Shown: positions 15,144-39,845 of the stretch, piece after piece
Numbering within the stretch: the first letter of the stretch is position 1
Layout of the letters: each line of letters begins with the position of its first letter
Origin: a virus
Strand: one strand, 5' to 3'
Length of the DNA stretch: 39,893 nucleotides
Virus record (IMG/VR): IMGVR_UViG_3300025892_000050
Span: 1 to 39,893 of that record
Notes under the pieces: generated by a model
What the model saw: only the letters and a program-made list of their open reading frames with translations
Databases searched by the model: none
What the model was told of the DNA's origin: nothing
Program-made: the position numbers and the translations under genes

Positions 15144-15222
15144 TGCTGACGTTGATGATATTGCTAAAAAACTTTTTGTAAACGAATTACTCTATGATTA
15201 TGAAGTAAAATATGTTGACTAA
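15001..15222 (+). CDS. purS: Phosphoribosylformylglycinamidine synthase, PurS subunit
   Basis: The 73-residue protein has the PurS pattern: IQTKLRSGIKDVEGETILNS near the N-terminus, ISVGEIYYLEIEND in the middle and VNELLYDYEV near the end. PurS bridges PurL and PurQ and passes ammonia in the small-subunit FGAM synthase of Gram-positive and cyanobacterial type, unlike the single large PurL of enterobacteria. Its ATG lies within the purD frame and its end overlaps purL by 11 bases. The bicistronic overlap implies tight translational coupling. Confidence 0.9.
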   Translation: MKKVAIQTKLRSGIKDVEGETILNSVGKDLKITHISVGEIYYLEIENDADVDDIAKKLFVNELLYDYEVKYVD

Positions 15223-17421: not shown

Positions 17422-17423
17422 TT

Positions 17424-19041: not shown

Positions 19042-19395
19042 TTGATTATTGGAGATAAAGATTTTACAATTTCTATTACAGAAAAAGCAAAAAATATATT
19101 TTATGAAGCAGATGAAAAATTTATAAGAGTTGGAGCAAATCCAGGAGGATGTTCGGGATGGAGATGGACACTTGAATCAACTAATGACCTCAAACTCAAT
19201 GATGTTACATTTGAAGGTGGTAGAATAATCATTGATAAAGAACTATTGACAAACGTTATAGGTTCTATTACTATAGATTATAAGGATGATAATTTAATTG
19301 AACAAGGGTTTGTTTTTTTAACTAATTCAGGACAATGTGGTTGTGGAGAATCTTTTCAACCGTTAAATTCTAATTTTAAATTAGGAATTGAATAA
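19042..19395 (+). CDS. iscA: IscA/ErpA/HesB-like Fe-S carrier
   Basis: A-type carriers hold and deliver Fe-S clusters. The 117-residue product has the fold markers ISITEKAKNIF near the start and the three conserved cysteines: Cys37 in PGGCSGWRW, then Cys99 and Cys101 in SGQCGCGESF. These correspond to the family's Cys35/99/101 pattern. The predicted start is TTG at 19042 with GAGGT just before it; no better ATG exists upstream in frame. The frame ends two bases before the IscU ATG. Together they form a scaffold plus carrier pair. The E. coli operon also holds iscS and chaperones, which are absent here. Confidence 0.92.
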   Translation: MIIGDKDFTISITEKAKNIFYEADEKFIRVGANPGGCSGWRWTLESTNDLKLNDVTFEGGRIIIDKELLTNVIGSITIDYKDDNLIEQGFVFLTNSGQCGCGESFQPLNSNFKLGIE

Positions 19396-19396
19396 T

Positions 19397-19774
19397 ATGT
19401 CATACAGCAAAGAAGTCTTGGACCATTATAATGACCCAAAAAATGTAGGAAGTTTTTCTAAAGATGATGAAAATATTGGTACAGGATTAGTAGGCGCACC
19501 TGAATGTGGTGATGTAATGAAACTACAAATCAAAGTAGAAAACGATAGAATAGTTGACGCTAAATTTAAAACATTTGGTTGTGGAAGTGCAATTGCTAGT
19601 TCCAGTTTAGCAACTGAATGGGTAAAAGGAAAAACAATAGATGAGGCACTTGAAATAAAAAATACTGAAATAGTTGAAGAACTCTCTCTACCTCCCGTTA
19701 AAATTCATTGTTCTGTTTTAGCAGAAGATGCTATTAAAGCCGCAATCAAAAATTATCGTGAAAGAGCCGTATGA
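19397..19774 (+). CDS. iscU: IscU/NifU-like Fe-S scaffold
   Basis: IscU is the scaffold on which [2Fe-2S] clusters are built by IscS. The 125-residue product keeps all ligands: Cys37 and Asp39 in PECGDVM, Cys62 in FGCGSAI, and His104/Cys105 in KIHCSVLAEDA. It also keeps the exact LPPVK motif (99-103) that HscA recognises, so it should work with host chaperones. I chose ATG 19397; a TTG nine bases upstream is less likely. It overlaps the next gene by four bases. The phage supplies no IscS, so sulfur would come from the host cysteine desulfurase. Confidence 0.93.
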   Translation: MSYSKEVLDHYNDPKNVGSFSKDDENIGTGLVGAPECGDVMKLQIKVENDRIVDAKFKTFGCGSAIASSSLATEWVKGKTIDEALEIKNTEIVEELSLPPVKIHCSVLAEDAIKAAIKNYRERAV

Positions 19775-25053: not shown

Positions 25054-26229
25054 TTAGCGGAAGATTGCTGCTTTAACATTAGAGTTATCAACTAAAGCAC
25101 CATTTGTATTATATGTGTATACCTTTACAGATCCTGTGCTTTCACTGTAAGTATAAGGCCCCTTATCTCCATTTCCACCACCAGCAACAGAAGAAGTAAC
25201 AGTAGAAAAATTTGCATCTGGCATCGCATTGGTGAAGTTTACTCCGTAATGTCCTGTTCCTAGATCTGTCAGGCTTGACACATTCCCACTTCCCAAAATT
25301 GAAACTGTTCCTGTTCCATTAAACCTTATCCAAGCTCTACACGCATATGCAGTACCAACTGAACCAAAACCTGAGTCAAATTTAAGATTCCCACTGTTAT
25401 CAATCCGCATTCTTTCACCATCAACACCGGAAAAAACATACCCAGTGAATCCAGTTTGATTCCCGTAAAATGTTAGTAACCCAGTAGAACCATTCCGACC
25501 AAATTCGTAAGACTGTGTAGCACTTGCACCATTTTCGACTCTAATTTGATTATCAGCAACATTTCTAATTGATAAAGTTTGACTTGGACTACTCGTCCCA
25601 ATCCCCACATTCCCACTGGAATCAACAACCAACGCATTGCTACCAATGGCTGCCGTTCCCGCATTCACCACAACACTTCCATTACTCTCACTTATCACAC
25701 TTCCACCATTGCTATCTACAATTGGAAGAACAGTTGAACTACTTGTAGCTGGTTCTCTACTAACAATCGCAACCACATCACCGTTCACTGGATTGAGTGT
25801 GAATGATATCACTTTTGTGTTAACGTTGATGCTGAAATCACTTGAAGCAAGTTTCACACCATTCAGGTAAACATCTGTACTGTCACCAGTCAAAGGATAT
25901 GGAAACGTGACTGTAGTCTCGTTGTTAGCAATTGTATGCTCATGGCGGCGCTCTGAGAAACGCACACCTTGTGTTAGATTTCTTCTACCTATGACAAAAA
26001 CGATGTCACCAGCAATTACATTACTTGCAAGTGTGATGGTCTTTCTATCTGCGCCAAGAGTGTAGTCATCAGAACCCAGTAAAACACCATTTTTATATAC
26101 ATCTAGGTAATTAGATTTACCTGATACAACAAACCCACTGGTGGCGATTGTGTTTGTTGTGCTTGTGATGTTGAATTCTTCTCTAAATTCGTTTGATTGT
26201 AGTGCTGGTTGTTTTCCTAAGTAGGCCAT
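25054..26229 (-). CDS. Tail fibre protein with C-terminal W-F-x-G-T-G domain
   Basis: The 391-residue product starts MAYLGKQPALQSNEFREEFN, with a repeated beta unit of the form LDVYKNGVLLGSDDYTL (about 42-58) and VYLNGVKLASSDFSI (about 121-135) that looks like a duplicated virion-proximal domain. The middle contains DSSGNVGIGTSSPSQTLSI, a common fibre linker. The C-terminal part (from about 295) is ACRAWIRFNGTG...VSSLTDLGTGHYGVNF...AMPDANF ending AAIFR, shared with two other genes here. Its ATG overlaps the stop of the gene before it (TAATG). Likely a receptor-binding fibre. Confidence 0.8.
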   Translation of the reverse strand: MAYLGKQPALQSNEFREEFNITSTTNTIATSGFVVSGKSNYLDVYKNGVLLGSDDYTLGADRKTITLASNVIAGDIVFVIGRRNLTQGVRFSERRHEHTIANNETTVTFPYPLTGDSTDVYLNGVKLASSDFSINVNTKVISFTLNPVNGDVVAIVSREPATSSSTVLPIVDSNGGSVISESNGSVVVNAGTAAIGSNALVVDSSGNVGIGTSSPSQTLSIRNVADNQIRVENGASATQSYEFGRNGSTGLLTFYGNQTGFTGYVFSGVDGERMRIDNSGNLKFDSGFGSVGTAYACRAWIRFNGTGTVSILGSGNVSSLTDLGTGHYGVNFTNAMPDANFSTVTSSVAGGGNGDKGPYTYSESTGSVKVYTYNTNGALVDNSNVKAAIFR

Positions 26230-26459
26230 TAACTAGTCTCTATGTTTATAGCCTTTAAATCTTCAACGGATGTAGCTGTATCACAAAGCATCGTGATGTC
26301 TCTGAGTTGTTGCTTCTCCGCTACAATTGCAGTTGTATCAGTTCCGGCTTCCTGCGCTCTCATATAGAGTATATCTTGAGCCTCTAACAAAGGCTTGCGT
26401 TCTTGTCGTAGCGATTCACGTTTGATCTCTCTGGCTTTATCTAAATTTATTGTAATCAT
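26229..26459 (-). CDS. Small fibre-associated protein
   Basis: The 76-residue product begins MITINLDKAREIKRESLRQE and is helical and charged (RKPLLEAQDILYMRAQEAGT, EKQQLRDITMLCDT). The layout, a short strand then an Arg-rich helix, recalls small tail-fibre-associated or assembly proteins of marine phages. It lies between two fibre-domain genes. The upstream linker (26462-26480) is an exact copy of one at 27040-27058 and holds its AAGGA site. The function is inferred from place only. Confidence 0.6.
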   Translation of the reverse strand: MITINLDKAREIKRESLRQERKPLLEAQDILYMRAQEAGTDTTAIVAEKQQLRDITMLCDTATSVEDLKAINIETS

Positions 26460-27039: not shown

Positions 27040-27058
27040 GGTTCCTTAGTTGTTAGCG
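27040..27058. repeat. 19-bp direct repeat, copy 2
   Basis: Exact copy of 26462-26480, again spanning the end of a fibre-domain gene and the ribosome site of the following gene on the minus strand. Confidence 0.85.
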
Positions 27059-27382
27059 AAATACTGCGGCTGAAATATCATCGAAATCAGTTCTCGCCCC
27101 ACTGAAGGCTTCACTGATAACAGTAAACGAGGTTGTTGTTTGGCCCGATGTTATAAAAGCGTGTAATTCATTGGTTGCTAATACTGAATAATTTGCGTCA
27201 GGCATTGCTGTTGTCATATTTACGGTATGGTCCCCTATTCCGTTATCAGTGATGCTAGAAACATTTCCAGAAGCGGATATTGCTGGTGTGCCTGTCCCGT
27301 CAAAGTGTACCCAGGCACGGCAACCAAATATAGGTGCATCATCACCGTTGGGCAAGTTCCCTATATTTCTTGCGTTACTCAT
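27053..27382 (-). CDS. Short fibre-domain protein
   Basis: I chose ATG 27380-27382, which overlaps the stop of the small gene upstream (ATGA), rather than a TTG at 27406. The 109-residue product begins MSNARNIGNLPNGDDAPIF and is then the shared domain: GCRAWVHFDGTGTPAISASG, VSSITDNGIGDHTVNMTTAM, PDANYSV and an AAVFR end. It is the third copy of this domain in the window. The loop between about 80 and 100 differs most from the other two and may face the receptor. Confidence 0.72.
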   Translation of the reverse strand: MSNARNIGNLPNGDDAPIFGCRAWVHFDGTGTPAISASGNVSSITDNGIGDHTVNMTTAMPDANYSVLATNELHAFITSGQTTTSFTVISEAFSGARTDFDDISAAVFR

Positions 27383-27522
27383 ACTGCATCCGGTGGTGTG
27401 GGCCAAACTACGTTGGTTAGTTGTCCGTTCTCATCTAGCGTTGCGTTCTTAATATCTACTTTATCATTAACAATGTCGTGCTGTGCGATGGTGTGTCCAG
27501 CGACCTTGATTGATCCAGCCAT
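27379..27522 (-). CDS. 47-residue chimeric remnant of fibre chaperone
   Basis: A minus-strand frame from ATG 27520-27522 to TGA 27379 encodes MAGSIKVAGHTIAQHDIVND and a tail LDENGQLTNVVWPTPPDAV. The tail matches the C-terminus of the tail-assembly chaperone genes at 30438, 38115 and 39016, while the front does not. It sits just after a FPDGTIIQ-type fibre gene, exactly where those chaperones sit. It is coupled to the next gene by an ATGA overlap. Most likely a recombinant left-over that is still translated. Confidence 0.6.
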   Translation of the reverse strand: MAGSIKVAGHTIAQHDIVNDKVDIKNATLDENGQLTNVVWPTPPDAV

Positions 27523-28097
27523 TACGACACCTCTTGAAGAAGTAAATAGCTTTTTGTGTTTGTCTGGGGACTTGAATAATAATTATTAATAAATGCTTTA
27601 GATGAATTAGCTGATGAATGGAACTTTGGTGTATACGTTAATGTTGTCCCTGCAGATTGCCCGTGATCATGCACATAAAATTGCATTGCACTATCGCTAA
27701 TGTAAGCAGTTGAATTTGTAAATGCTATAATATCTGTCACTGTTTGATCTAGACTCGTCACTGATTCTGTAATTTTAACAGACAATGCTGTACTGCTATC
27801 CTTTTTACCTGCACCACTTAAAAATAAATAGATAAAGAGCTTAGAATTTGTTTTCTTTAATGTAATAGTTTTACTAAATCCAGATATGCTTGTGGGGGTA
27901 TTGTTTGTAAATTCTTCATAAGTAACGTATTCAACATATTCTTGTTGAATTATAGTCCCATCAGGAAACGTCACGCTAGAGTCGAGCGTTGCGTTGCTGA
28001 TCGTGCCACCAGACCCAATGATAGAAACACCATCAACAGATACTGGTGATTTAAGGTCTACGATATTTGAGGAGTTGTATCTACCTATGTATGCCAT
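27522..28097 (-). CDS. Fibre protein of the FPxGxIIQ group
   Basis: I chose ATG 28095-28097 (MAYIGRYNSSNIV); a TTG nine bases upstream is less likely. The roughly 191-residue product has the group signature ISNATLDSSVTFPDGTIIQ (about 33-51), also found in the genes at 30815, 38483 and 39357. The following 130 residues form a Ser/Thr-rich beta domain (ITLKKTNSKLFIYLFLSGAG, IISD-like loops) ending YLLLQEVS. It probably builds a short fibre or adhesin tip. Its stop touches the ATG of the chimeric small gene. Confidence 0.72.
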   Translation of the reverse strand: MAYIGRYNSSNIVDLKSPVSVDGVSIIGSGGTISNATLDSSVTFPDGTIIQQEYVEYVTYEEFTNNTPTSISGFSKTITLKKTNSKLFIYLFLSGAGKKDSSTALSVKITESVTSLDQTVTDIIAFTNSTAYISDSAMQFYVHDHGQSAGTTLTYTPKFHSSANSSKAFINNYYSSPQTNTKSYLLLQEVS

Positions 28098-28098
28098 A

Positions 28099-28419
28099 TC
28101 ATGCAATCTCTAGATAACTTGCCGTCACATCCACTACATTGTTAGCATCTGCAGTTACAAGCAAACTATCACCTTCCATCAACACGATCTTGTTTTCAAT
28201 GAGGGCAAGAGAACTATTTACGGGAAGCGGTGCACCTGTGATATAACTGTATGTGTTTGCACCTTCAGCTATTTCAACTGTGATTTCATGGTCTGATGTA
28301 TCCTTGTTGGATGCAATCAATCCAATGATGACAACCTGAGCATTTGTTCCAACAGTCGGTACTAAAGTTGTTTGAGATGATTCTACGTGTACTGATTTTC
28401 TTTTAAATGCTTCTGCCAT
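28099..28419 (-). CDS. Conserved virion-region protein
   Basis: The 106-residue product (MAEAFKRKSVHVESSQTTLV start) is a beta-rich protein with PTVGTNAQVVIIGLIASNKD and VEIAEGANTYSYITGAPLPV, ending DVTASYLEIA. The pattern recalls small phage proteins of the head-tail or fibre region with a jelly-roll-like fold, but I cannot name a family. AGGAGG precedes the ATG, inside the end of the upstream gene. Confidence 0.62.
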   Translation of the reverse strand: MAEAFKRKSVHVESSQTTLVPTVGTNAQVVIIGLIASNKDTSDHEITVEIAEGANTYSYITGAPLPVNSSLALIENKIVLMEGDSLLVTADANNVVDVTASYLEIA

Positions 28420-28425
28420 TTATGC

Positions 28426-28743
28426 TCATCCTCCTAAAGCTATTGAAGCAACTGTTGGTGAAAGACCTGGAAATGATAGTGAACCGGTTGCTGTTATGTG
28501 ACTTGCTGTGATGTTTACGCTACCGTTAGATTCACTGATAATATTATTACCACTACTGTTTACAACTGGTGGTGCTGTAGTATTTATCAGAATACCTTCA
28601 CTACCATCACCAGTGTGCATTCTAAGTTCACCAGTAGACACACCAGCATCCGTAGTGATTGCAGTAAGCTCACCATTCTCAAAGTCAGTATAATTTATAT
28701 GTTCAAGGACTGTGCCTCTTAAAAGTTTAATACCGTTTGCCAT
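28426..28743 (-). CDS. Mtd-N-like fibre leader protein
   Basis: The 105-residue product begins MANGIKLLRGTVLEHINYTD, then ENGELTAITTDAGVSTGELR and MHTGDGSEG. This is the N-terminal unit of the major-tropism-determinant / phage fibre leader type, and also occurs at 31440 and 35687. The second half (VVNSSGNNIISESNGSVNIT) matches a segment in the fibre at 25054. So it looks like a short fibre or an attachment module. No clear ribosome site precedes the ATG; AATAAATA lies just upstream. Confidence 0.68.
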   Translation of the reverse strand: MANGIKLLRGTVLEHINYTDFENGELTAITTDAGVSTGELRMHTGDGSEGILINTTAPPVVNSSGNNIISESNGSVNITASHITATGSLSFPGLSPTVASIALGG

Positions 28744-28751
28744 AAGAGTAT

Positions 28752-28820
28752 TTATTCTGTTGGTGGTTCTACTGGTTCATCTGCTGGAAGTGGCTCGTTT
28801 AATTTAAGTGTTCCGCTCAT
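28752..28820 (-). CDS. Possible 22-residue peptide
   Basis: A minus-strand ATG at 28818-28820 opens MSGTLKLNEPLPADEPVEPP then TE and stop. An AGGA lies about 11 bases upstream. The Pro/Glu-rich peptide could be real or a fragment of a longer lost gene. Confidence 0.35.
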   Translation of the reverse strand: MSGTLKLNEPLPADEPVEPPTE

Positions 28821-28826
28821 TTAAAT

Positions 28827-29216
28827 TTATTCCTGTGATTCCCAAGTTTGTGTTTCTTCGTTCCAATTATATATTTGTTCATCATTCGGATATGGTATTG
28901 GTGATTCCCAAAGACAAGATAGTTCGTTTAATGTCCAACTAGGATATGGTTGTGGTGGAATAAAAGCATCTCTTGTTTCATCATAAGTGAATCCAACACC
29001 AGCATAATTTTTTCTGAATGCTTCGGATTGGTCTTCACTTAGTTCATTTGTTTCTGGATTGTAATGTACTCCACCTCTAGTATTATAAGATGTTCTTTTA
29101 TGTACCTTACCAAATCTTTCAGTATAGATTCGTTCCAAATCCACTACTTCTTCACTTGCACCTGTTCTAACTTTTGTTACTATGTTGTTATTATCTAATT
29201 CTGCGTAATATGCCAT
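28827..29216 (-). CDS. Conserved tail-region protein
   Basis: The 129-residue product starts MAYYAELDNNNIVTKVRTGA, has YNTRGGVHYNPETNELSED and RKNYAGVGFTYDETRDAF, then IPPQPYPSWTLNELSCLWE and a final WNEETQTWESQE. I recognise this as a widespread protein of marine phage tail regions (short-tail-fibre or unknown type); its role is unclear. The ATG has AAGGGA upstream. It lies between the glycine-rich adhesin gene and the Mtd-N-like gene. Confidence 0.75.
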   Translation of the reverse strand: MAYYAELDNNNIVTKVRTGASEEVVDLERIYTERFGKVHKRTSYNTRGGVHYNPETNELSEDQSEAFRKNYAGVGFTYDETRDAFIPPQPYPSWTLNELSCLWESPIPYPNDEQIYNWNEETQTWESQE

Positions 29217-29225
29217 TTTAATCCC

Positions 29226-30434
29226 TTACCATGAAATATCCCCATCACCATCTAAAAACTCATATGTCTTATAACCTGCTCTTGATGTATTTGGTGCCGG
29301 AGGTGTAGTTGTACCCGATACTGTTGTTGCTCCTCTACAAGTGTGTGATACATCTATGCTTACTAAATCTGGATATGTATCTGAGTAAGAAATGATTACT
29401 ATACCCTTTCCTCCAGGAGCAGCAGCATTGCCAGATCCGCCTGCATTGTAACCACCGCCACCACCTCCACCAGTGTTTACAGTTCCAGATACTGGATTTC
29501 CAGCACTTCCTGCTCCTCTTCCACCTCCACCATTTCCTCCAGTTCCTCCAGAATAAGAAGTACTAAGTGATCCTCCCCCACCTCCTCCTGAATAAGCTAC
29601 ACTGGACCCTGTGATTGAATTAATTTTACCATCTCCTCCATTACCTCCAGTTCCGCCTCCATTTGAACCTCCATGTTTTCCTTTTGCAGAAGCACCACCG
29701 CCACCGCCACCTCCATGATTGCCATTATAACCACTTCCTCCATCATATCCTTGTGTTTCTATACCAGACCCACCCAAACCTCCTCTAGAAGTTCCGCTAC
29801 CACCACCACCTCCAGAACCTCCAGATTGACCTATGCCTCCATAACCACCAGTAGACCCACCACCAACACCTCCGCCTACACTTCTTATACTAGAAAACAC
29901 AGAATCATTACTATTATTACTTAATACGTTATTAGTACCTCCAGCGCCTACTGTAACAATATAATTTGTAGATGTATAAACTGTTAGTTGATTTTCTGGT
30001 GTATGAGTAATTCCTCCTGTTGAGTCTACAGAAGAACGCATTCCTCCTCCACCACCGCCACCGCTGCCATTGCTCCAACCTCCACCACCGCCAGCTACAA
30101 CCAAATAGTCAACAAGAATATTTGAATTTACATTGGCTATGTTTACCCAGCTACTTCCAGTGTAAATTTTTAAATTATTATCACTGCTATCCAAATACAT
30201 ATCACCTTGTACTGGATTGCTGGGAGCAGCACTAGGTGTTAGACTAAGTTTAGAAAGATTGCTAACAGTACCTGAAGGACTAAGTATTTCATCACCACCA
30301 CTACTCTTCAAAGGATGTGTCAATCTAATGCCAGCATTTGCTGTTGATTCAGTAAGCTCATCAATCTTGAGTTTTACTGGACCTGTACCTGATTGTTCTG
30401 CGAAAAGTTTTCCGTTAATTTCTAGTGTTGGCAT
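29226..30434 (-). CDS. Glycine-rich tail adhesin
   Basis: The 402-residue product has a beta N-terminal part (MPTLEINGKLFAEQSGTGPV, then PVQGDMYLDSSDNNLKIYTG and SSWVNI, about 75-97) and a huge glycine-rich region (about 110-345) with many runs of four or more Gly, separated by Ser, Asn and Tyr loops. It ends GKGIVIISYSDTYPD and a short domain. The Gly-rich part matches the polyglycine sandwich type of phage adhesins such as T-even gp38, in which loops carry receptor specificity. Codon choice for Gly is mixed, so the repeats are not recent perfect copies. Confidence 0.82.
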   Translation of the reverse strand: MPTLEINGKLFAEQSGTGPVKLKIDELTESTANAGIRLTHPLKSSGGDEILSPSGTVSNLSKLSLTPSAAPSNPVQGDMYLDSSDNNLKIYTGSSWVNIANVNSNILVDYLVVAGGGGGWSNGSGGGGGGGMRSSVDSTGGITHTPENQLTVYTSTNYIVTVGAGGTNNVLSNNSNDSVFSSIRSVGGGVGGGSTGGYGGIGQSGGSGGGGGSGTSRGGLGGSGIETQGYDGGSGYNGNHGGGGGGGASAKGKHGGSNGGGTGGNGGDGKINSITGSSVAYSGGGGGGSLSTSYSGGTGGNGGGGRGAGSAGNPVSGTVNTGGGGGGGYNAGGSGNAAAPGGKGIVIISYSDTYPDLVSIDVSHTCRGATTVSGTTTPPAPNTSRAGYKTYEFLDGDGDISW

Positions 30435-30437
30435 ATT

Positions 30438-30818
30438 TTATTCTGGTTTCTCTGGCCAATTAATATTAATTAAATTACCATTTTCATCTAGTTGTGGTTC
30501 TGCTGTAACTGGCAAATCTCTAAGTGCTTGTCGGTATGCTTTCAAACTATCTATATTTAATCCTTTTTCTAATCCTCTAGTGATTTCCCAATCTGTTTTT
30601 GCTAGTTTGTTATTTCTTTCTTCTCGCATTAATCTAAGAGGTTCTGCTAATTTTAATTCTTCATATTTCAATAGAATTTCTTCTTGACTGGGTTGCTCTA
30701 GTTCAGTCTCATACCATTCAACTATATGATTATCTACAACCTGAAATAGTGCATTTTGTTTGTTTACTAATAAATCTACTGCTTCTCTGTATAACATTGC
30801 AGGACTTTTTAGATTCAT
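30438..30818 (-). CDS. Tail fibre assembly chaperone
   Basis: The 126-residue product has the Phage_tail_APC pattern: AEPLRLMREERNNKLAKTDW, then ITRGLEKGLNIDSLKAYRQA and LRDLPVTAEPQLDENGNLIN with WPEKPE at the end. These helices and the TDW motif guide fibre folding in tailed phages. The first half (REAVDLLVNKQNALFQVVDN) is unique to this copy. It overlaps the fibre gene before it by four bases (ATGA). Similar partners follow the genes at 38483 and 39357. Confidence 0.8.
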   Translation of the reverse strand: MNLKSPAMLYREAVDLLVNKQNALFQVVDNHIVEWYETELEQPSQEEILLKYEELKLAEPLRLMREERNNKLAKTDWEITRGLEKGLNIDSLKAYRQALRDLPVTAEPQLDENGNLININWPEKPE

Positions 30819-31438
30819 GCTGCAATCTCCATTAAAGTCATATTATGCATTTGTGTGCCATAACCCCAAGCATCCGCATCGTATACTGTACCTGCATATA
30901 CCACGTAATAAACTCTATATTCCAGTTCTTTACCTGCGGGTTGATTTGGTGAATGTAATCCAACACCGCCTAATGGTAATTCTCTCCAAGATGAATGACC
31001 GTGAAGTTTTAACCTTATTCTTAATGTATCTGCATAACTACTCCAAGTTCCTCCAGAGTCACGATATCTCCAGTGTACTGTATAATGTGCATCACCACTA
31101 TCATTTATTTGTGGAGATGATGCTGGAAAAAATGCTATTTTACTATTTGCTTTTTTTAAAATTATTGTTGCGTATATGTTATTAGAATAAAAACTGTTAC
31201 TACCACTTTGAACAGCAGGTGTAATTGGATTATCTACAACTTGAATCACATGCCCAGCAGGAAACGTAGCACTTGCTAATGAATTGTTGATGTTGACATC
31301 ATTGGTAAGTCCTACTGTACCACCATCATCTGATATGATTTGTGTTCCGTTTGTATGATATAATGTGTTTGCAATCAGAGATGTTGTATCACCAACTACT
31401 TCAGCTACTTTCGTACCTTTAATTAATAATTGAGCCAT
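30815..31438 (-). CDS. Fibre protein of the FPxGxIIQ group
   Basis: The 207-residue product starts MAQLLIKGTKVAEVVGDTTS, with NINNSLASATFPAGHVIQVV (about 48-67) as group signature. The rest is a beta domain with Asn/Ser loops (ILKKANSKIAFFPASSPQIN, SWRELPLGGVGLHSPNQPAG) ending MTLMEIAA. It is followed by its chaperone gene with an ATGA overlap. It likely forms a short fibre or spike tip. Confidence 0.75.
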   Translation of the reverse strand: MAQLLIKGTKVAEVVGDTTSLIANTLYHTNGTQIISDDGGTVGLTNDVNINNSLASATFPAGHVIQVVDNPITPAVQSGSNSFYSNNIYATIILKKANSKIAFFPASSPQINDSGDAHYTVHWRYRDSGGTWSSYADTLRIRLKLHGHSSWRELPLGGVGLHSPNQPAGKELEYRVYYVVYAGTVYDADAWGYGTQMHNMTLMEIAA

Positions 31439-31439
31439 A

Positions 31440-31739
31440 TTATATTATGTTGAGATTACCAGTAATATTGATTGTACCGTTTGCGCCAATGTTGATAGGA
31501 CCAACTAATGCTAGATTATATCCATCATGTATATTTAGCGTATAATCTATAGTAGATGGATTAGCTGCCGCTGCAACAAGTATCTTTCCACCAGCAGTAA
31601 AACCATCATGAACACGTACTTCACCAGTTGGTAAATCAGTAATACCTCCAGCAGTGATCAAAGTAACTTCACCTTTTTCACCGGTAAAAGTTTCATGTTC
31701 ATTGTGTGTTCCTCTTGATAATTTAACGATTTCTGGCAT
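31440..31739 (-). CDS. Mtd-N-like fibre leader protein
   Basis: The 99-residue product (MPEIVKLSRGTHNEHETFTG) carries GEKGEVTLITAGGITDLPTG and EVRVHDGFTAGGKI, the leader unit also at 28426 and 35687. The second half (YTLNIHDGYNLALVGPINIG, NGTINITGNLNII) is a short beta segment. It could be a stand-alone attachment module for a fibre. No clear ribosome site is visible. Confidence 0.66.
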   Translation of the reverse strand: MPEIVKLSRGTHNEHETFTGEKGEVTLITAGGITDLPTGEVRVHDGFTAGGKILVAAAANPSTIDYTLNIHDGYNLALVGPINIGANGTINITGNLNII

Positions 31740-31759
31740 ATTGTTTTTTAATTAAATTG

Positions 31760-34700
31760 TTATCTGGCATTACTGAATTTAATAGGTTGCTCGGCAAATG
31801 CTGCGTAAATAAATTTGTCATTAGCTCCGCCATTGCCATTCAATTCCGTACCGTTTTGTCTACACTTAAACCCATTACTTAAAAGATCTAAATAAAGTGT
31901 ATCTCCTCCAGAATCTCCAGCAGTATTTCCTCTTTTTCCTTCTGCATGACTTCTGTTTGCATATAATGGACTATGATTTGGATTATTAGTTATTCTGGAA
32001 TTATCATACATAACCCAACTATGATAGTCAGCATTAGAAGTACCAGTATAAAGTTTTACCATCAAAAAAGCAGGTTTAAATCCAGTGTAAATAAATGGAC
32101 CATCTGTAGAATTATTACCAGAAAAGCTTCCGAATGCGGAGAAGCCAGCTACGCTGTGCCAGCAGTAAGCGATAATATCGTCACTTAATCCGTTAATATG
32201 ATTTGAGTTTCCTAATGTAAATGTATTAGCAGAAAAACCAGACCAAAATGCTGAATTAGAAGCTTCTGAATTTGGTAATTCTAGGTGTAAATAGTGTATA
32301 TTGCTGGATAAACTTTTATGATAAACTAACCAATTAGCTGTGTCGTCTAAGTTTTTAGCAATTATTAAATCTGGAGCAGAACTAAGCCCATGTGGGACGG
32401 TAGCAGCACTACCCGTTCCGACATACTTCACAATACTAAAACCTGCTTTTGTATTAACGCTCATTCTAGTTGGGGTTATAGTACCAGCATCTAATTTAGC
32501 ATCTCCAGTAATAGTTCTTTCTACACCATCAACTACACCTTTATCATCTCCACTTGGAGCACCTCCTGCCTTCCAGCACCAGGCTACATTTGTTGTTCCT
32601 GTAACATTTCCTGAACTAGAAGAACTCAGGGCAAATCCATTACTATTTAAAACACAAATATTGGCATAATCTGTATTTTCTGCAACGGTGCTGTGACTTG
32701 ATAGATATGAATCAGGTCCTCGTATAACATCATGTATATTATGACCATATGAATTACTCCTAGATTTTATCCAAACAAAATCCGGTTGAAACTCAATACC
32801 AGTAACTGTTTTAGTACCGCCATTACCATCATAAGTTACTGCTTTAAAATGTTTTTCAGGGTCTTGTGCAGCAACATTGTTACGCTTAGTAACTTTTCCT
32901 GGTTGAGCAAGAAGTACAGTTTCATTTGTTTGTGTTAAAGGTTCCGTAGGTGGAGTGAAATCAGCAGTATAAAGTGCCACACCTTTTACAATTCTAAGGT
33001 CAGCGATAACTCCTTTCACACCATAAGTTGATCCTAAAGTTGAATTAGCTCCTATTTCTAAATAAGAATCTGTTGTGTATCCAGAATCTGTGCCACTTGC
33101 ATCTTGCACTCCATTTAAATATAATTTCCAATTACTTGATGCATCTTGCACTACAGCAACATGATACCATTTTCCTGGTGTTAATGAAGTAGCACCCACA
33201 AACGTATTTCCCGAACCATTTGATGTCCACATTGCAATTTTGTCTGAGTTAGATACAATTTGCCATCTATTTAAAAAATTACTACTCCAACCAGCAGTTG
33301 TTAATATGGGGTTATTTGTTCCTATACTAACATTAGATTTATACCAAAATTCAATTGTATAAGGTGAATTTGCTCCAGGAGTCCAATCAGAAGATTGTGC
33401 TAATTTAATATAATTTAATGAACTTGTATTATTAAAACTAAAACTTCCATAATCTCCACTCTTGTATGGTGAAGATGCTGAAACAGCAGCATTTCCAACA
33501 TATGTCAAACTTTTGCCAGTTTCATCTTGTGCATAAGAATCAATCAGCGACATCACACCAGCACTGGTCTTTGTGTGCCAGGGTTGTAATAATAATTTAG
33601 TGTTAGAATTTTTTGTAACTTTATTAGTAGGAACATCTGTAGGATTGGATATTGCAGTTTTTTCAAATTCAAAATCTGCAATATGACCTGCAAATCCAGC
33701 ATTAGCATCTCCACTAGAACCTATCCATAAGCTATCAGTAGAATTATAAATTGTTCCAGATATTGTATTGTTAGTAGGAGTCATAGATGCTCCATTAACA
33801 TATAAAGAAGTAGTACCTCCTGAATTTACAAAAACAAAATAATTCCAACTATTAGGAGTGATAGGTAAATTATCAAATTTACCACCATCTACCCAAGGGT
33901 CTTGAGGTGTAGAACTAGTTTTATACTGAAACCAAAATGTAGTATATCTATTTGATGCACTACCTTCAAAAAACGCTCTTATTTCTTTATTACTATTCCA
34001 TTTAGCAAATACATGTTGTGTCTGAATACTGTTATTGGTTCCATACATCCAAAATCTAAAGGTAAAATCTCCGTTAGATAAACTCCAATCCTCGTTGTCA
34101 CCCATATCTAATTTATCACCATTGCCATCTAACTTAAAACTTCCTCCATAGTAGTTGTCTTTGGCACGGAAAAATGCTGTATCAAAATCATTGCTACGTT
34201 GATACGGAGACCAGTCTGAGATTGAAGGAGAACTATTTATAGTAACAGTTTTGTTTGTTCCTGATGAATCTTCAAACCCTTTACTATCTACAGATAACAA
34301 AAACTTTGTATTAGTTATAGCTGTTAATTTGGCATTGGGTGCTGAAATATATCCATTACCATCTGGTGTATAAACTGCGGTACCTTTTACTATTCTAAAA
34401 TCAGCAATGTATCCACCTAAATCTTGACTATTACCAGAATATCCTCCAATACATAAGAAATTTGTATTAAATCCAGTGAGCGCATCTGTAATAGAGCCAG
34501 TACCAATATTATATTGTGTAGAACTTGGTTTACCATTACAATAAATTTTTATTGCTGTGCCATTTCTTTGTAAAACAATATGATTCCATTGATGTCTTTT
34601 AACATATAAATCTGTATGATTACCATTAAATACCCAAGATGATTTATTACCATAATCTGTTATAAGATAATCTGTATTAGATAATCGTATTTGCCAAGCA

Positions 34701-35677
34701 GTTCCATTAGTTGTACCACCTCCTTGCCATTGGGGATAAGATACTATTGTTTCATCAGAATCTCCGCCCATATGATACAACCAAAATTCAACTGTAAAAT
34801 CATTTGTTCCAAATTCTAAATCACTATGTACGGGAGTTCTTACCTGACTTGACGCAATATTTGAATCAAAATTTATACTCCATCCATCAGTAGTATACGG
34901 AGAAAACTTGCTGATTTGTGCATTACCATTGTAGGTAAGCATATGCTGATTTGGTTCATCAACAATATATTCTGCTGGCTGTAGATTTGCAGTATCTAAA
35001 TTTGCTGTACAAAGTGCCATTGCTCCAGCTGGTGGCTCATAAAAAAATCTACCATGCCCTGAAGCATCTGTATAAACTTTTGTTGGAACTCTATTGTTAG
35101 CAAATGTTGGGTCTTGGCCGAAATTAAATCTAGCATATCCATCGTTACCTCCATTACTGCAAACTAGATGTATATCTGCTGTACTATCAAAATTTATCCA
35201 ATTATTATATCCAAATGAATACGTATAACTTGCAGTGGCTAGATATATTGTAAATTCGTTTGCAATAAAATTGATTAATAATCCTACAACTTCTGTAGTA
35301 CTAGTATTCATAAATGGAAAATTTCCATTACTACTTCTGTATTGCCAAGTTACCCTGCCTCCTTGGTCTGCGCCTGCATTTATCTCAAAGTTTTGATTAG
35401 TGTTGCCATATATACCAAAATAATTGCTGTTTTGTGTAAATCCTATAGTAATCGCATCAGTCATTTGTGCAATTTCAAAATATATTTTACCCATAGTATG
35501 TACAAATGGTAATGTTGTAATGTATCTACCATCACTATTAAAAGGCGTATTTGTATATAAACGTAAATTGCCTTCAGTCATATCAAACATATTACTTGTA
35601 TCAGGTGCCAACGGATTCAAAGTTGCAAATGTGTTTGTCGGTGTGTCTTTTACTACGTCATCTCTTGTAAATGCCAT
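31760..35677 (-). CDS. Giant multi-domain adhesin (SPRY-like plus three LamG domains)
   Basis: The 1305-residue product has, in order, a SPRY-like N-terminal domain (about 30-205, with GKIYFEIAQMTDAITIGFTQ), three LamG/ConA-like domains marked by FTVEFWLYHMGG (about 293), FTFRFWMYG (about 535) and YTIEFWYKSN (about 770), each ending with GYIADFRIVKG- or GVIADLRIVKG-type segments. A C-terminal block (from about 960) has VTGIEFQPDFVWIKSRS and NVAWCWKAGG, then SAPDLIIAKN and FSAFGSFSGN. These are carbohydrate-binding-type folds. It is likely a long fibre or adhesin that binds surface glycans. AAGGA precedes the ATG. Confidence 0.82.
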   Translation of the reverse strand: MAFTRDDVVKDTPTNTFATLNPLAPDTSNMFDMTEGNLRLYTNTPFNSDGRYITTLPFVHTMGKIYFEIAQMTDAITIGFTQNSNYFGIYGNTNQNFEINAGADQGGRVTWQYRSSNGNFPFMNTSTTEVVGLLINFIANEFTIYLATASYTYSFGYNNWINFDSTADIHLVCSNGGNDGYARFNFGQDPTFANNRVPTKVYTDASGHGRFFYEPPAGAMALCTANLDTANLQPAEYIVDEPNQHMLTYNGNAQISKFSPYTTDGWSINFDSNIASSQVRTPVHSDLEFGTNDFTVEFWLYHMGGDSDETIVSYPQWQGGGTTNGTAWQIRLSNTDYLITDYGNKSSWVFNGNHTDLYVKRHQWNHIVLQRNGTAIKIYCNGKPSSTQYNIGTGSITDALTGFNTNFLCIGGYSGNSQDLGGYIADFRIVKGTAVYTPDGNGYISAPNAKLTAITNTKFLLSVDSKGFEDSSGTNKTVTINSSPSISDWSPYQRSNDFDTAFFRAKDNYYGGSFKLDGNGDKLDMGDNEDWSLSNGDFTFRFWMYGTNNSIQTQHVFAKWNSNKEIRAFFEGSASNRYTTFWFQYKTSSTPQDPWVDGGKFDNLPITPNSWNYFVFVNSGGTTSLYVNGASMTPTNNTISGTIYNSTDSLWIGSSGDANAGFAGHIADFEFEKTAISNPTDVPTNKVTKNSNTKLLLQPWHTKTSAGVMSLIDSYAQDETGKSLTYVGNAAVSASSPYKSGDYGSFSFNNTSSLNYIKLAQSSDWTPGANSPYTIEFWYKSNVSIGTNNPILTTAGWSSNFLNRWQIVSNSDKIAMWTSNGSGNTFVGATSLTPGKWYHVAVVQDASSNWKLYLNGVQDASGTDSGYTTDSYLEIGANSTLGSTYGVKGVIADLRIVKGVALYTADFTPPTEPLTQTNETVLLAQPGKVTKRNNVAAQDPEKHFKAVTYDGNGGTKTVTGIEFQPDFVWIKSRSNSYGHNIHDVIRGPDSYLSSHSTVAENTDYANICVLNSNGFALSSSSSGNVTGTTNVAWCWKAGGAPSGDDKGVVDGVERTITGDAKLDAGTITPTRMSVNTKAGFSIVKYVGTGSAATVPHGLSSAPDLIIAKNLDDTANWLVYHKSLSSNIHYLHLELPNSEASNSAFWSGFSANTFTLGNSNHINGLSDDIIAYCWHSVAGFSAFGSFSGNNSTDGPFIYTGFKPAFLMVKLYTGTSNADYHSWVMYDNSRITNNPNHSPLYANRSHAEGKRGNTAGDSGGDTLYLDLLSNGFKCRQNGTELNGNGGANDKFIYAAFAEQPIKFSNAR

Positions 35678-35686
35678 TCTTATTCC

Positions 35687-37522
35687 TTAATTTGCTGCCC
35701 AATCGTTTGCTGTTGTATGTGTTCCATCAATCGGAGCTATATCTTTTACTGTTTGCACCGCATTACCATTGAATACTAAATTTTCTGGTGAAAAGTCTAA
35801 GTGGAAACCATTCACACCGTAACCACTTCCTGAATATTGTTTCGGAACCCACATGCCATCTACAGTTTGTCCGAAATTACTAGGAGTTAATTTTTGTCCA
35901 TCAATAAAATAAACATCTGCAATATAACCATTGTACTTTAAGTCTACACCTGCTCCGGCATTTCTTGCTCCTACATAATGTACTCTTGGACGATTAGTTG
36001 ATGGTTGACTAAAACCTCCACCTATTTCATTTGCCACAGATATATTATTGACATAAACATTTAATAATTGTGTTGTCCAATTTACTGACAATACTATATG
36101 ATACCAAGTATTAGTATCTCTATACACTGCTGTAGTTGAATGATTATAATAATTTCCACTATTTCCCACTTGGTATTCTAGAGTATCACTTCCTGTAAAA
36201 CGTAAAACATCTCTGTTAGATGTATCTTGATAAGAACCAAAAATTGCATATTGTCCTAATGCACTTCGTTTTACCCATGCGCTGAAAGTAAAAACATTTG
36301 CATCTGTAGCTGTTCCGAGCGTATCATCTAAATAACTACTTCCATCAAACCGTAAACTGTTTAAAACTTCAGAAGTTCTAACAATATTCACTGTTCTACT
36401 TGTGATTTGCTCTCCTAAGTTTTGAGCATCACCACTTGTGCTTTTTGCTTGTACTGTAAAATTACTTGTGGTATATTCCGTAACTGATTCTGTCAATCCA
36501 GTAATCACACCTGTTGTGCTGTCTATGCTCAAACCAGTTGGTAAGTTTACTGCACCATAAGTTACTGTATCTCCATCTGGGTCTGTACTTGTTGGTAAAG
36601 TTACCTCAACGCCTTGGTCACGATAAATTCCGTATATAGTTGCCAATGTTGTGCTATCTGTTAAACTCCATGTAGGTTTTGTATCAACATAAATTGCATT
36701 TTCAAAAATTGCACTTAATCCACCTGCTTTTGTTATTTTTAAATCATATGGTTCTTTAGTAAAGTCAAATTGAAATGTATTTGCGACTGCTGTTAATTGT
36801 GTAGCTGTATTGAATGTAACTGTCAGAGGAGTTATTTCTGAATTATCATTTCCTATGAAAATTACAGTTGAACCTTGATCAAAATTGTTTCCAGAAATCA
36901 CAAAACTTGTTGTGTTGTTTCCAAAGTCGGGAAATTGTGGGGAAACACTTGTTACTTCTGGAGGCATGTCTCCAATTTTAGACCATACTGCAGGAACTAT
37001 AGATTCAGAATATATTTCATATTGCTGCAATGTTGTGTTGTAACGAATCATGCCTGCGGTTGGTGTTGCAGGTCTTTGTGCTGTTGTACCTTTGGGTACT
37101 ATTATTGCACCAGTATCATTGCTCAAATCAATTGATACATTTTTGATTGTAACTTTTGTGTTTGTTTCTTCTACAATTGGAGTAAGTTCATCACTCTTGA
37201 AGATTCCTACATTGTTTGCTGGTATGACTAGTTGGTCAGTACCTTTCTGTAGAATTAAATCTCTTGTGTTGATTGTACCTAAGTCAACAATGGTTCTTGC
37301 TTCTCTTAGATGAGAAATACGTCCACCTTCAAGCACTGTTTGTGTGAGTGCCATATTTCCAACAGGTATACCACCAAGGAAATTTTCGTTGTGTATTCTT
37401 AATTCTCCTGTACATACACCATTCGCAGTAGTTACGGCTGTGATTTCACCATTGTAAAAAATGCTGCTGTTTGCTGTATGTTGTGGTCTTGTACCACGTA
37501 GAAGTCTTATACCTTGTGACAT
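35687..37522 (-). CDS. Multi-domain fibre with Mtd-N leader, Ig-like and LamG domains
   Basis: The 611-residue product begins with the leader MSQGIRLLRGTRPQHTANSS and NGEITAVTTANGVCTGELRI. It then has a linker with KGTTAQRPATPTAGMIRYNT (about 140-160), a TIG-like domain (about 190-270, VTSVSPQFPDFGNNTTSFVI), a putative Ig/cadherin-like unit (about 290-375, STDPDGDTVTYGAVNLPTGL) and a C-terminal LamG domain (about 395-590, FTFSAWVKRSALGQYAIFGS, YNGYIADVYFIDGQKLTPS). A glycan-binding virion fibre is likely. It lies just before the giant adhesin in transcription order. Confidence 0.8.
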   Translation of the reverse strand: MSQGIRLLRGTRPQHTANSSIFYNGEITAVTTANGVCTGELRIHNENFLGGIPVGNMALTQTVLEGGRISHLREARTIVDLGTINTRDLILQKGTDQLVIPANNVGIFKSDELTPIVEETNTKVTIKNVSIDLSNDTGAIIVPKGTTAQRPATPTAGMIRYNTTLQQYEIYSESIVPAVWSKIGDMPPEVTSVSPQFPDFGNNTTSFVISGNNFDQGSTVIFIGNDNSEITPLTVTFNTATQLTAVANTFQFDFTKEPYDLKITKAGGLSAIFENAIYVDTKPTWSLTDSTTLATIYGIYRDQGVEVTLPTSTDPDGDTVTYGAVNLPTGLSIDSTTGVITGLTESVTEYTTSNFTVQAKSTSGDAQNLGEQITSRTVNIVRTSEVLNSLRFDGSSYLDDTLGTATDANVFTFSAWVKRSALGQYAIFGSYQDTSNRDVLRFTGSDTLEYQVGNSGNYYNHSTTAVYRDTNTWYHIVLSVNWTTQLLNVYVNNISVANEIGGGFSQPSTNRPRVHYVGARNAGAGVDLKYNGYIADVYFIDGQKLTPSNFGQTVDGMWVPKQYSGSGYGVNGFHLDFSPENLVFNGNAVQTVKDIAPIDGTHTTANDWAAN

Positions 37523-37540
37523 TTATATTTTAAATTAAAG

Positions 37541-38113
37541 TTAACCTACAAAATGACCAGAAAAATGATTAACATTAGAAATGTTTGTTCTCACAGTATT
37601 CAAAACATATATTTCCATAGTATCTCCATTATTTAAATAATATGTTATAGATGTAGTATTTGCCGGTTCTTGATTACTGTAAACAGATTGTAAATGTTGT
37701 AAATAACCCGCTATACCTCCGTTCACTCTAAATTGTATAAGAGTCCTATCTCCACCTGAAGTTCCGACAAGTGTTGTTGTAAAATGATAGAATCCTGAAA
37801 TTGGTGCAGTAAATAATCCCGTAGTACCAGAATAACTATTTGTATTATCATATTCAACTAAATTAAAAACAAATATAGCGTTACCACCAAAAGAAGCGGT
37901 ATCTGTTCTTTTTGCAAAAAATGCAGGAACATTAGGTTTACTTTCCAATCCAGTAGAACTCATTCCCCATAACTTAGTTACATCATTATTATAAATGTTA
38001 AAATCATCACCAACTGTTTTTAAATTAAAGTTTTGTGTATCGCCCTTAAATTTAAGTTGCTGAGTATTACTTGTAAATTCTATACCAGTTAGACCATTTA
38101 TTTTAACTGACAT
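37541..38113 (-). CDS. C1q-like domain fibre protein
   Basis: The 190-residue product has a short N-terminal part (NGLTGIEFTSNTQQLKFKGD) and a C-terminal C1q/TNF-like domain (about 58-190): PAFFAKRTDTASFGGNAIFV, LVEYDNTNSYSGTTGLFTAP, ISGFYHFTTTLVGTS and NHFSGHFVG at the end. This is the trimeric jelly-roll signature also found in phage fibre tips. A trimeric receptor-binding head is likely. GGAG precedes the ATG, within the end of the preceding chaperone gene. Confidence 0.82.
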   Translation of the reverse strand: MSVKINGLTGIEFTSNTQQLKFKGDTQNFNLKTVGDDFNIYNNDVTKLWGMSSTGLESKPNVPAFFAKRTDTASFGGNAIFVFNLVEYDNTNSYSGTTGLFTAPISGFYHFTTTLVGTSGGDRTLIQFRVNGGIAGYLQHLQSVYSNQEPANTTSITYYLNNGDTMEIYVLNTVRTNISNVNHFSGHFVG

Positions 38114-38114
38114 C

Positions 38115-38486
38115 TTACTCCGGTGGTGTAGGCCAAATTACGTTTGTCAATTCTCCATTCTCATTCAATTGTGGTTCTGCTGTTGCAGGCAAGTCTCTTA
38201 ATTGTTGTAAGTATGTTTGCCATTCCATTGGGACTTCTGTACCTTGACTGTATGCTCTGATTGTAATCCAATCATATTTCGCTAATAATCTGTCACGTTC
38301 TAATCTTAACAGGCGTAATGGTTCTGCTGCTTCTAGTTCTGCTATTTTGGCTTGAATCTCTTCTCTAGTTGGAATAATTTCATTTAACCATATTATGTTG
38401 TCATAATCATCTATTGTGTTTGTAGGTGATGGAAATATACTCCATTGACCATCATAATATTCATTTAAAACTGTAAATAAATTCAT
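38115..38486 (-). CDS. Tail fibre assembly chaperone
   Basis: The 123-residue product has LEAAEPLRLLRLERDRLLAK and YDWITIRAYSQGTEVPMEWQ, then LRDLPATAEPQLNENGELTN and VIWPTPPE. It is the same chaperone family as at 30438 and 39016, with TYL in place of the other spacer. The first 45 residues are unique and probably read the partner fibre. It overlaps the fibre gene at 38483 by four bases, as in the other pairs. Confidence 0.8.
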   Translation of the reverse strand: MNLFTVLNEYYDGQWSIFPSPTNTIDDYDNIIWLNEIIPTREEIQAKIAELEAAEPLRLLRLERDRLLAKYDWITIRAYSQGTEVPMEWQTYLQQLRDLPATAEPQLNENGELTNVIWPTPPE

Positions 38487-39016
38487 CGTGGCATTACCTC
38501 ATAAACTACTATTGAAGAAATATGTTGTTGATTTCTAGCATCTTCGGATGCGTTAGGATTGAAATAATTAAACGGTCTTTCATTTGAACTGTTTGCAGTT
38601 TTCCATCCAAAATATATTGATGTAGTTCCGACTGGTGGTGTTGACCAATAACCTGATCCTATAATTATTGTTGTTTGTTGTGTTGAACTCCATGAACCAT
38701 CATATTGATATCCACAACCAAACTGCCATGTTGAGTTTAGTTTCATTCCAACTCCACAATTTCCAGAACTATATCCTGAACCATAAACTGTACAAGTTGC
38801 AAATATATCAGTGTCACTTCTTAATTTCGTAAAATTATTACCAAACAATGTTGCTTCTGATGACGCGGATATTGAAGACCGTGTTCCATTTTGTATAACA
38901 AAAGATTGTATTATATGCCCAGCAGGAAACTTAACATTATTTGTTAATGCCCCATTGTTCAACAATATATTGTCGTTTAAATCTTTTATTTCTATTACTT
39001 TTAAAGCACTTGGCAT
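38483..39016 (-). CDS. Fibre protein of the FPxGxIIQ group
   Basis: The 177-residue product starts MPSALKVIEIKDLNDNILLN, with NGALTNNVKFPAGHIIQSFV (about 20-39) as the group signature. The C-terminal part is rich in Gly/Ser/Tyr (CTVYGSGYSSGNCGVGMKLN, GCGYQYDGSWSSTQQ) and ends SSIVVYEVMPR. Two aromatic/Cys-rich loops could be receptor contacts. It pairs with the chaperone gene after it. Confidence 0.75.
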   Translation of the reverse strand: MPSALKVIEIKDLNDNILLNNGALTNNVKFPAGHIIQSFVIQNGTRSSISASSEATLFGNNFTKLRSDTDIFATCTVYGSGYSSGNCGVGMKLNSTWQFGCGYQYDGSWSSTQQTTIIIGSGYWSTPPVGTTSIYFGWKTANSSNERPFNYFNPNASEDARNQQHISSIVVYEVMPR

Positions 39017-39360
39017 TAACTATTCTCTGGTGGTGTAGGCCATTCTACATTTGTTAGATTTCCAAATTCATTTAATTGCGGTTCTGCTGTTGCTGGTAAA
39101 TCTCTAAGTGCTTGTCTATAGGTTTTCCATTCAGCAAGGTCCATATCTTGCTCTAATCCTTTTGTAATAATCCAATCTGTTTCTTTTAATAAATGATTAC
39201 GATGCTTCCGTATTATTTGAACTAACAAATCTTGAAAACTAAATGACGGTTCACCATCCAGATAATCAATTGTTCTGTCATCATAAACTTTTGCTCTAGT
39301 AGATGGGCTTATATCGTGAATCGCCATTTTTAAATCTAAGTCTGTGATTGGCCCCATCAT
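39016..39360 (-). CDS. Tail fibre assembly chaperone
   Basis: The 114-residue product has LVQIIRKHRNHLLKETDWII, then KGLEQDMDLAEWKTYRQALR and DLPATAEPQLNEFGNLTNVE with WPTPPENS. It belongs to the same family as 30438 and 38115. It overlaps the fibre gene before it by four bases and touches the ATG of the next fibre gene by TAATG. Its first 45 residues are not shared. Confidence 0.8.
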   Translation of the reverse strand: MMGPITDLDLKMAIHDISPSTRAKVYDDRTIDYLDGEPSFSFQDLLVQIIRKHRNHLLKETDWIITKGLEQDMDLAEWKTYRQALRDLPATAEPQLNEFGNLTNVEWPTPPENS

Positions 39361-39845
39361 GCTTTTATCTCGTACATAATTGCTCTAATTCTTTCAACTG
39401 TGACATATGACGTACCACCCGATGCTGGTTCTGCGTAAATATCGTATGAAGGTGTAGTGTCTGGAGGTGATTCATCTAAGTATGTTAATTGCAAATCCCA
39501 TCTAGCAGTATAAGCGATTCCACATTCAGCAGTTGCTAGGTTCGTAGTTTCTCCTTGTCTTCGGAGGAAATACCGTCCATATGAATTACTGTTCTGATAA
39601 ACAAAAAACATAGTCATAATATGTATTAAAACATAATTACCACTATTTATTGTTAGCTGATCAGTTAATTGGCCTTTGATAGCACCAGTAGTAGTGTTTG
39701 TATCATGACCAGACACCGTTACATTTTTTGCCTGTAAAATAGTACCAGCAGGAAACGTAACATTCTCAGTCAACGCACCATCACTCATCAACACTTGATT
39801 ATTTAATAGACGAATTTCGTCCGTTTTTAATATACTTTCTGCCAT
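39357..39845 (-). CDS. Fibre protein of the FPxGxIIQ group
   Basis: The 162-residue product starts MAESILKTDEIRLLNNQVLM, with SDGALTENVTFPAGTILQAK (about 20-39) as signature. The rest is a beta domain with a basic loop (YGRYFLRRQGETTNLATAEC) and ends ERIRAIMYEIKA. It pairs with the chaperone after it by an ATGA overlap. Its ATG lies one base after the stop of the partial gene at the right edge. Confidence 0.75.
   Translation of the reverse strand: MAESILKTDEIRLLNNQVLMSDGALTENVTFPAGTILQAKNVTVSGHDTNTTTGAIKGQLTDQLTINSGNYVLIHIMTMFFVYQNSNSYGRYFLRRQGETTNLATAECGIAYTARWDLQLTYLDESPPDTTPSYDIYAEPASGGTSYVTVERIRAIMYEIKA

Follow-up and report, generated by a model that had tools for sequence, protein, structure and literature searches.

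Joint replacement of fibre bodies and chaperone N-terminal halves in the multi-slot tail-fibre array of a marine T4-like phage

Where do repeated pairs of fibre and chaperone genes in a phage genome come from, and what is the short reading frame that follows a fibre gene with no such partner? IMG/VR virus record IMGVR_UViG_3300025892_000050 raises both questions. This linear record of 39.9 kb, only part of its genome, was analyzed at its full length of 39,893 nucleotides (the window), and its minus strand from 24.0 to 39.9 kb is an array of fibre-like genes. Three of these genes (F1, F2 and F3) are each followed by a chaperone gene (C1, C2 and C3), while fibre 4 has no intact chaperone downstream and is followed by a frame of 47 residues. 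An earlier sequence-only reading had located these pairs, fibre 4 and the frame correctly, and had explained them by duplication, partner-specific folding and loss. Our results indicate that fibre bodies and chaperone N-terminal halves are replaced together, and make it very probable that the array is a multi-slot set of plug-in adhesins in which these two parts are exchanged as one block.

Replacement of two blocks in a near-isogenic phage

Within each of the three pairs, the two genes share a 4-nt ATGA overlap; this overlap had also been claimed for fibre 4 and the 47-residue frame, which instead meet at TAATG with an overlap of 1 nt. The fibre motif, given earlier as FPAGxIIQ, is present in a looser form (FPAGTILQ, FPAGHIIQ, FPAGHVIQ and FPDGTIIQ). 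C1, C2 and C3 scored 54.9, 56.2 and 44.6 bits against the Phage_tail_APC family (PF16778; curated cut-off 26.6; E 1e-11 to 3e-15), so their likeness to this family is not due to chance and their description as APC-type chaperones stands. The best score against Caudo_TAP (PF02413) was 17.8 bits, under the cut-off of 22.1. When the three chaperones were compared with one another, the C-terminal halves were strongly alike (z 36-38) and the N-terminal halves unalike (z -0.8 to 1.0), as expected from the earlier statement that the first part of each differs. The four fibre bodies of the window are mutually unrelated (z < 2), and among the fibre adaptors (the N-terminus up to FPAG) those of F1 and F2 alone are related (z 11.6). 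An AlphaFold2 model of C2 (predicted local distance difference test score, pLDDT, 88.5) contains an N-terminal part (residues 1-39), a long helix (41-80) and a further helix (87-97). Both the sequence pattern and this model thus describe a variable N-terminal part joined to a conserved helical C-terminal part, and fold matches of the chaperone in BFVD carry a tail assembly chaperone annotation.

We then compared the window with a near-isogenic phage from IMG/VR sample 3300024264, represented by contig _000210, which spans window positions 39893-27958 with interruptions, and contig _000021 (L092), which spans 27067-20825 at 99.5% identity. Outside the swaps, the blocks are mostly 98.6-99.8% identical; the majority of shared blocks reach 99.5-99.8%, and one stands at 97.9%. 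At slot 1, identity is lost at the FPAG codons (39745) and returns at 39182, which corresponds to T61 of C1 in TDWIITKGLEQ. At slot 2, it is lost just past FPAGHI (38906) and returns, mismatch-free, at about 38332, which corresponds to A53 of C2 in AAEPLRLLR. Slot 3 is unchanged. Thus, at slots 1 and 2 the fibre body and the chaperone N-half change jointly, while the fibre adaptor and the chaperone C-half stay. The replaced bodies and N-halves differ in length between the two phages and are unrelated to their counterparts: body z=2.4 and N-half z=0.8 for unit 1, and z=1.0 and z=0.5, respectively, for unit 2. The 3' borders of both swaps fall within the first long chaperone helix, as placed by the C2 model. 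The window's form of slots 1 and 2 is also carried by a separate contig, L143, at 100% identity over 3,088 bp.

Co-variation of fibre body and chaperone N-terminal half across phages

A chaperone profile yielded 80 loci, a neighbouring 71-residue gene 60, and the window's fibres further ones; from these, 75 dereplicated cassettes were each cut into adaptor, body, chaperone N-half and chaperone C-half. Similarity of the fibre body was correlated with that of the chaperone N-half (Mantel r=0.489; p=0.001, the lowest value that 1,000 permutations can give), and this correlation was retained given the adaptor and the C-half (partial r=0.483). Body and adaptor were nearly independent (r=0.068), and adaptor and C-half were correlated (r=0.425). 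Because the cassette sequences are mutually related, the Mantel p value is only a guide, and it is the base-level swaps that carry the argument for co-replacement. All 13 pairs with a body similarity of at least 0.35 had a chaperone N-half similarity of at least 0.33, and the chaperone N-halves of the closest body relatives of F1, F2 and F3 ranked 4th, 1st and 1st of 72. The sequence-only reading held that each chaperone is matched to its fibre, a claim that an absence of co-variation would have contradicted; since body and N-half co-vary and are replaced together in near-identical phages, the matching is upheld, though not as a universal rule, given a six-locus lineage described below.

The same boundaries are seen among more distant cassettes. 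In loci L013, L121 and L154, the bodies are 0.95-0.99 similar and the chaperone N-halves 1.00, while the adaptors are only 0.11-0.23 and the C-halves 0.49-0.53 similar; in the DNA, identity sets in at FPAG or slightly ahead of it and extends for about 184-206 nt into the chaperone gene. Judged by these alignments, this is a transfer of the unit between unrelated adaptors. The F3 body is likewise joined to different adaptors in L154 and L015. Conversely, at one orthologous slot in 11 phages, both flanks are conserved (adaptor median 0.81, chaperone tail 0.87), whereas DNA identity of the body (0.56, versus 0.55 when shuffled) and of the chaperone N-half (0.54 versus 0.52) is close to that of shuffled sequence.

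Fibre 4 and the 47-residue frame

The 47-residue frame had been described as keeping only the C-terminus of a chaperone. We found that its front is of another kind: residues 1-22 (MAGSIKVAGHTIAQHDIVNDKV) match fibre N-termini in L017 and L036 (73%, E 7e-7), and the corresponding DNA, which is related to L036, is also 76% identical over 74 nt to L089, both matches being the starts of fibre genes at the same slot. Thus, a fibre adaptor makes up the first ~23 residues, and the last ~23 codons match the 3' end of an intact L092 chaperone gene without a difference; only 16-18 residues of the chaperone C-terminal end are left. The two parts join at CAACGCTAGA, a short sequence shared by fibre (NATLD) and chaperone (PTLDE). 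Since a similar stretch is present in the fibre adaptors of this phage (fibre 4: CAACGCTCGA), the frame is likely to have formed by a short-homology joint. By comparison with its relatives, then, the frame is a fused, emptied cassette of chimeric origin. A single ancestor could have lost the missing sequence by deletion, or a misaligned replacement could have delivered the body of fibre 4; both routes would fit. A decayed fibre 4 chaperone was rejected as its identity, because the front is a fibre start. The proposed loss therefore holds, with the difference that a cassette block was lost and not just the N-half of fibre 4's chaperone. At E<=1, the frame matched neither a Pfam family, Phage_tail_APC included, nor a PHROG family; tblastn with the frame and with its first 30 residues gave no match in 50,697 phage records, and a degenerate pattern of the DNA at its start had none in IMG/VR.

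In relatives, the slot between the conserved ~110-residue gene and the fibre-like MSNARN gene, whose start overlaps the 47-residue frame by ATGA, is usually occupied by a fibre and a chaperone. In L036, for example, the fibre starts with MAGSIKVAGHELVSHDIANDKL and the chaperone ends with QLDENGQLTNVTWPSL, and MSNARN follows. Other states also occur: L089, L094 and L095 contain an intact MAGSIKV fibre, after which an ATGA start leads into some 30 nt of chaperone tail; in L115, the chaperone tail remains in a 17-codon frame; and L099, L100 and L109 lack the cassette. The TTG-started N-terminal extension of the MSNARN gene (MAHTTGCSM) is a chaperone 3' end in another reading frame.

An exchange model, its alternatives and its relation to known systems

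We propose that each slot would retain two fixed parts, a fibre adaptor that presumably docks on the virion and a helical chaperone C-half that may trimerise as in Pam3 gp25. The exchangeable block between them would comprise the distal body of the fibre and the chaperone N-half, predicted to grip that body during folding. This block would be replaced in one piece, probably via recombination in conserved sequence, with the FPAG codons as one joining end and the region from the first chaperone helix to DLP...LDENGxLTNVxWP as the other. As the block would move in one piece, a swapped fibre would come with a folding partner of its own. The 47-residue frame would represent a slot without its block, in which the adaptor is joined to the chaperone tail. 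We infer the chaperone function, and fibre binding by the N-half, from comparative analysis. In Pam3, the non-conserved N domain of the chaperone grips the distal fibre and the conserved helical C domain trimerises (PMC9608196); this division of labour predicts that the gripping half travels with the part gripped, and the exchange unit would fit that prediction.

Could the pairs have arisen within this genome, by tandem duplication of one pair, divergence and, at fibre 4, loss of the N-half of its chaperone? The related adaptors of F1 and F2 and the related chaperone C-halves, the only parts shared, are consistent with such a history. The bodies and chaperone N-halves, however, are mutually unrelated and have their relatives in other phages, body similarity is 0.07 for cassettes in one locus versus 0.06 for cassettes of different loci, and the 47-residue frame begins as a fibre and not as a chaperone. 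Duplication as the source of every pair is not supported, and we consider the scenario as a whole very unlikely. The 47-residue frame might alternatively be a working small gene, such as a leader that couples translation to the downstream MSNARN gene. It is open from its TAATG start to its ATGA end, and other decayed slots likewise retain short frames reaching the MSNARN start (11 codons in L089, and the 17 codons of L115). However, two of these three frames would have stopped close to that start in any case, short frames are readily open by chance, and no second copy of the junction was found in IMG/VR, which makes a working gene unlikely.

The sharp limits of variation and the repeated boundary sequence would also suit a site-specific switching system, either an invertible segment or a diversity-generating retroelement. 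However, inverted repeats between 20 and 39.9 kb reach at most 20-35 nt, with 71-85% complementarity, and an invertible segment was rejected for want of suitable inverted repeats; invertible cassettes of the Mu and P1 type were sought through inverted repeats and inverted alternative segments, and none was found in the 39.9-kb fragment. Moreover, the relative's replaced bodies do not occur elsewhere in the window, nor do the window's in the relative's contigs, and what replaces the block is unrelated sequence of another length rather than scattered substitution. On this evidence, which covers part of the genome and for which no search aimed at a recombinase or reverse transcriptase was made, switching is extremely unlikely. 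Assembly chimeras of co-occurring strains could in principle mimic a swap, as both contigs come from metagenomes and assemblies frequently break at hypervariable genes, but the separate contig L143 carries the window's form of slots 1 and 2, and the same joint exchange is found between the complete genomes of cultured phages; we hold this explanation to be extremely unlikely. These phages, Melnitz-2 and Melnitz-3, are Methylophilales phages of one host strain with long flanks that are 98.6-100% identical. Fibre bodies and partner genes are exchanged between them at three slots, with flanks at 99.5% identity, and one fibre/APC pair is unchanged.

Several observations weigh against joint exchange of body and N-half as a complete account. 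In one lineage (L020, L028, L032, L035, L056 and L057), near-constant chaperone N-halves (e.g., MTTIANALTSLGITEWVLRGEPT) accompany unrelated bodies, and strict one-to-one matching is therefore not needed everywhere. A Foldseek search of the PDB with the chaperone model gave no significant match, whether to Mu Tfa (5YVQ), to Pam3 gp25 or to another entry, and the model of fibre 3 (pLDDT 56.6) was too poor for interpretation, so that its matches were not used. Fibre 4 might need no chaperone, a situation reported for Alteromonas phage A5 (PMC10579305). The exact junction 32-mer of the 47-residue frame is in no other IMG/VR contig, and the chimera therefore rests on one assembly. Finally, that contigs _000210 and _000021 are one genome is an assumption, and the relative's slot 4 is split across both.

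Joint exchange as proposed here has known relatives. C1-C3 resemble Phage_tail_APC and the PHROG tail fiber assembly proteins (phrog_4912 and phrog_8746), each lying directly 3' of a fibre gene, but the PF16778 model spans the C-half alone, and the fibre-linked variable N-half lies outside it. Pam3 gp24/gp25 and phage Mu Tfa share the layout of variable N and conserved helical C part and the position directly after the fibre gene; sequence and fold comparison of the window's chaperones with Pam3 gp25 and Mu Tfa detected no match. In R-type syringacins, the receptor-binding body (Rbp) and its chaperone are jointly replaced by localized recombination, and the two genes retarget (PMC6331570). As in the window, a conserved fibre N-terminus is the left anchor and the replacement occurs between close relatives, but the right breakpoint of syringacins is found at varying positions downstream of the chaperone, whereas in the window it lies inside the chaperone and several slots are involved. 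A fibre and its cognate chaperone are also shared by recombination among distant marine phages, Alteromonas A5 and V22 (PMC10579305); there the chaperone is of another type (beta-hairpin tentacles) and the whole module is shared, in contrast to the half-gene unit of the window. The host recognition clusters of pelagimyophages are hypervariable islands (PMC7029224). The Melnitz phages are, like the window, marine T4-like phages, but in them the whole partner gene changes; four Melnitz isolates did not differ in host range across three OM43 strains (PMC9004378). Matched exchange of fibre and chaperone is thus already known from syringacins and Alteromonas phages, with Pam3 for the structure. In the part of the literature that we covered, we found no description of a right breakpoint that falls within the chaperone, of exchange at multiple slots in a single genome, or of an emptied cassette, and these three features are new here.

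The window otherwise contains typical T4-like marine myophage genes. Its UvsW-like helicase is closest to those of cyanophages (about 42-45% identity); for Pelagibacter phage Mosig the value is 43%. By eye, 13207-18365 and 19042-19774 hold what we take to be a purine-synthesis-like run (PurE-, PurD-, PurL-, PurQ- and PurM-like) and two Fe-S assembly-like genes. Within the array (Table 1), a Gly-rich fibre (29226-30434) matches PF21722 and is followed by a phrog_7759 protein; the Gly-rich fibres of the Melnitz phages likewise have a similar partner, and both move together. This is possibly a second type of fibre and partner. A C1q-domain fibre (37541-38113) without a chaperone is flanked by the slot 2 chaperone and a LamG protein. 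The array also holds a LamG/DUF7483 protein of 1305 residues (31760-35677). The middle of this long protein (about 34115-32905) is unlike that of the near-isogenic relative and its ends are 98-99.8% identical, which, as judged from the alignment, is domain swapping within a single long adhesin. The 76-residue stand-alone protein lacks the N-half and the tail, scores 16.6 bits against PF16778 (E 0.007, under the 26.6-bit cut-off), and is conserved beside the 71-residue gene in L017 and L036. Locus L121 has seven chaperone-like matches within 12.2 kb, a larger array than the window's.

Table 1. Features of the fibre slots and their surroundings, in window coordinates.
Feature	Position	Strand	Remark
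Fibre gene F1, 162 aa	39357..39845	-	paired with C1
Fibre 1 adaptor (codon 1 to FPAG)	39745..39845	-	98.7% over 39893-39745 to 3300024264_000210, then abrupt divergence
Exchange unit 1, fibre 1 body and chaperone 1 N-half (to E60/T61)	39183..39744	-	unrelated in relative
Chaperone C1, 114 aa	39016..39360	-	PF16778
Fibre gene F2, 177 aa	38483..39016	-	adaptor kept to 38906, body replaced in near-isogenic relative
Exchange unit 2, fibre 2 body and chaperone 2 N-half	38333..38905	-	unrelated in relative
Chaperone C2, 123 aa	38115..38486	-	PF16778; N-half to about E52 replaced in relative, C-half 100% kept
Fibre gene F3, 207 aa	30815..31438	-	unchanged in near-isogenic relative
Chaperone C3, 126 aa	30438..30818	-	PF16778
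phrog_7759 partner	28827..29216	-	3' of Gly-rich fibre 29226-30434
Conserved ~110-aa gene	28099..28419	-	left-hand border of slot 4
Fibre gene 4, 191 aa	27522..28097	-	adaptor kept to about 27958; body unlike relative's Gly-rich body
47-aa chimera, emptied cassette (fibre adaptor fused to chaperone tail)	27379..27522	-	from sequence comparison with relatives
Fibre-derived part of 47-aa frame	27453..27522	-	78% DNA identity, 72 nt, L036:2413-2483
Chaperone-derived part of 47-aa frame	27379..27449	-	identical to L092 intact chaperone 3' end
MSNARN fibre-like gene (PHROG tail fiber protein)	27053..27382	-	right-hand border of slot 4
76-aa stand-alone protein, APC helical domain relative	26229..26459	-	phrog_20196 E 2e-16

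These findings bear on how phages with many adhesins change them. We judge the chances evenly balanced that the chaperone has been split in evolution into a slot-owned C-half and a fibre-owned N-half, with conserved DNA in both genes as fixed joining ends, and that this unit serves multiple slots in marine T4-like phages with emptied slots as a by-product. The near-identical genomes amount to a natural experiment on which part of the chaperone pairs with which part of the fibre, and chaperone specificity becomes directly testable with half-gene chimeras. They also carry a warning, that short frames beside fibre genes can be emptied cassettes and not genes. The exchange model would explain how a phage with many slots can change a single adhesin without broken folding.

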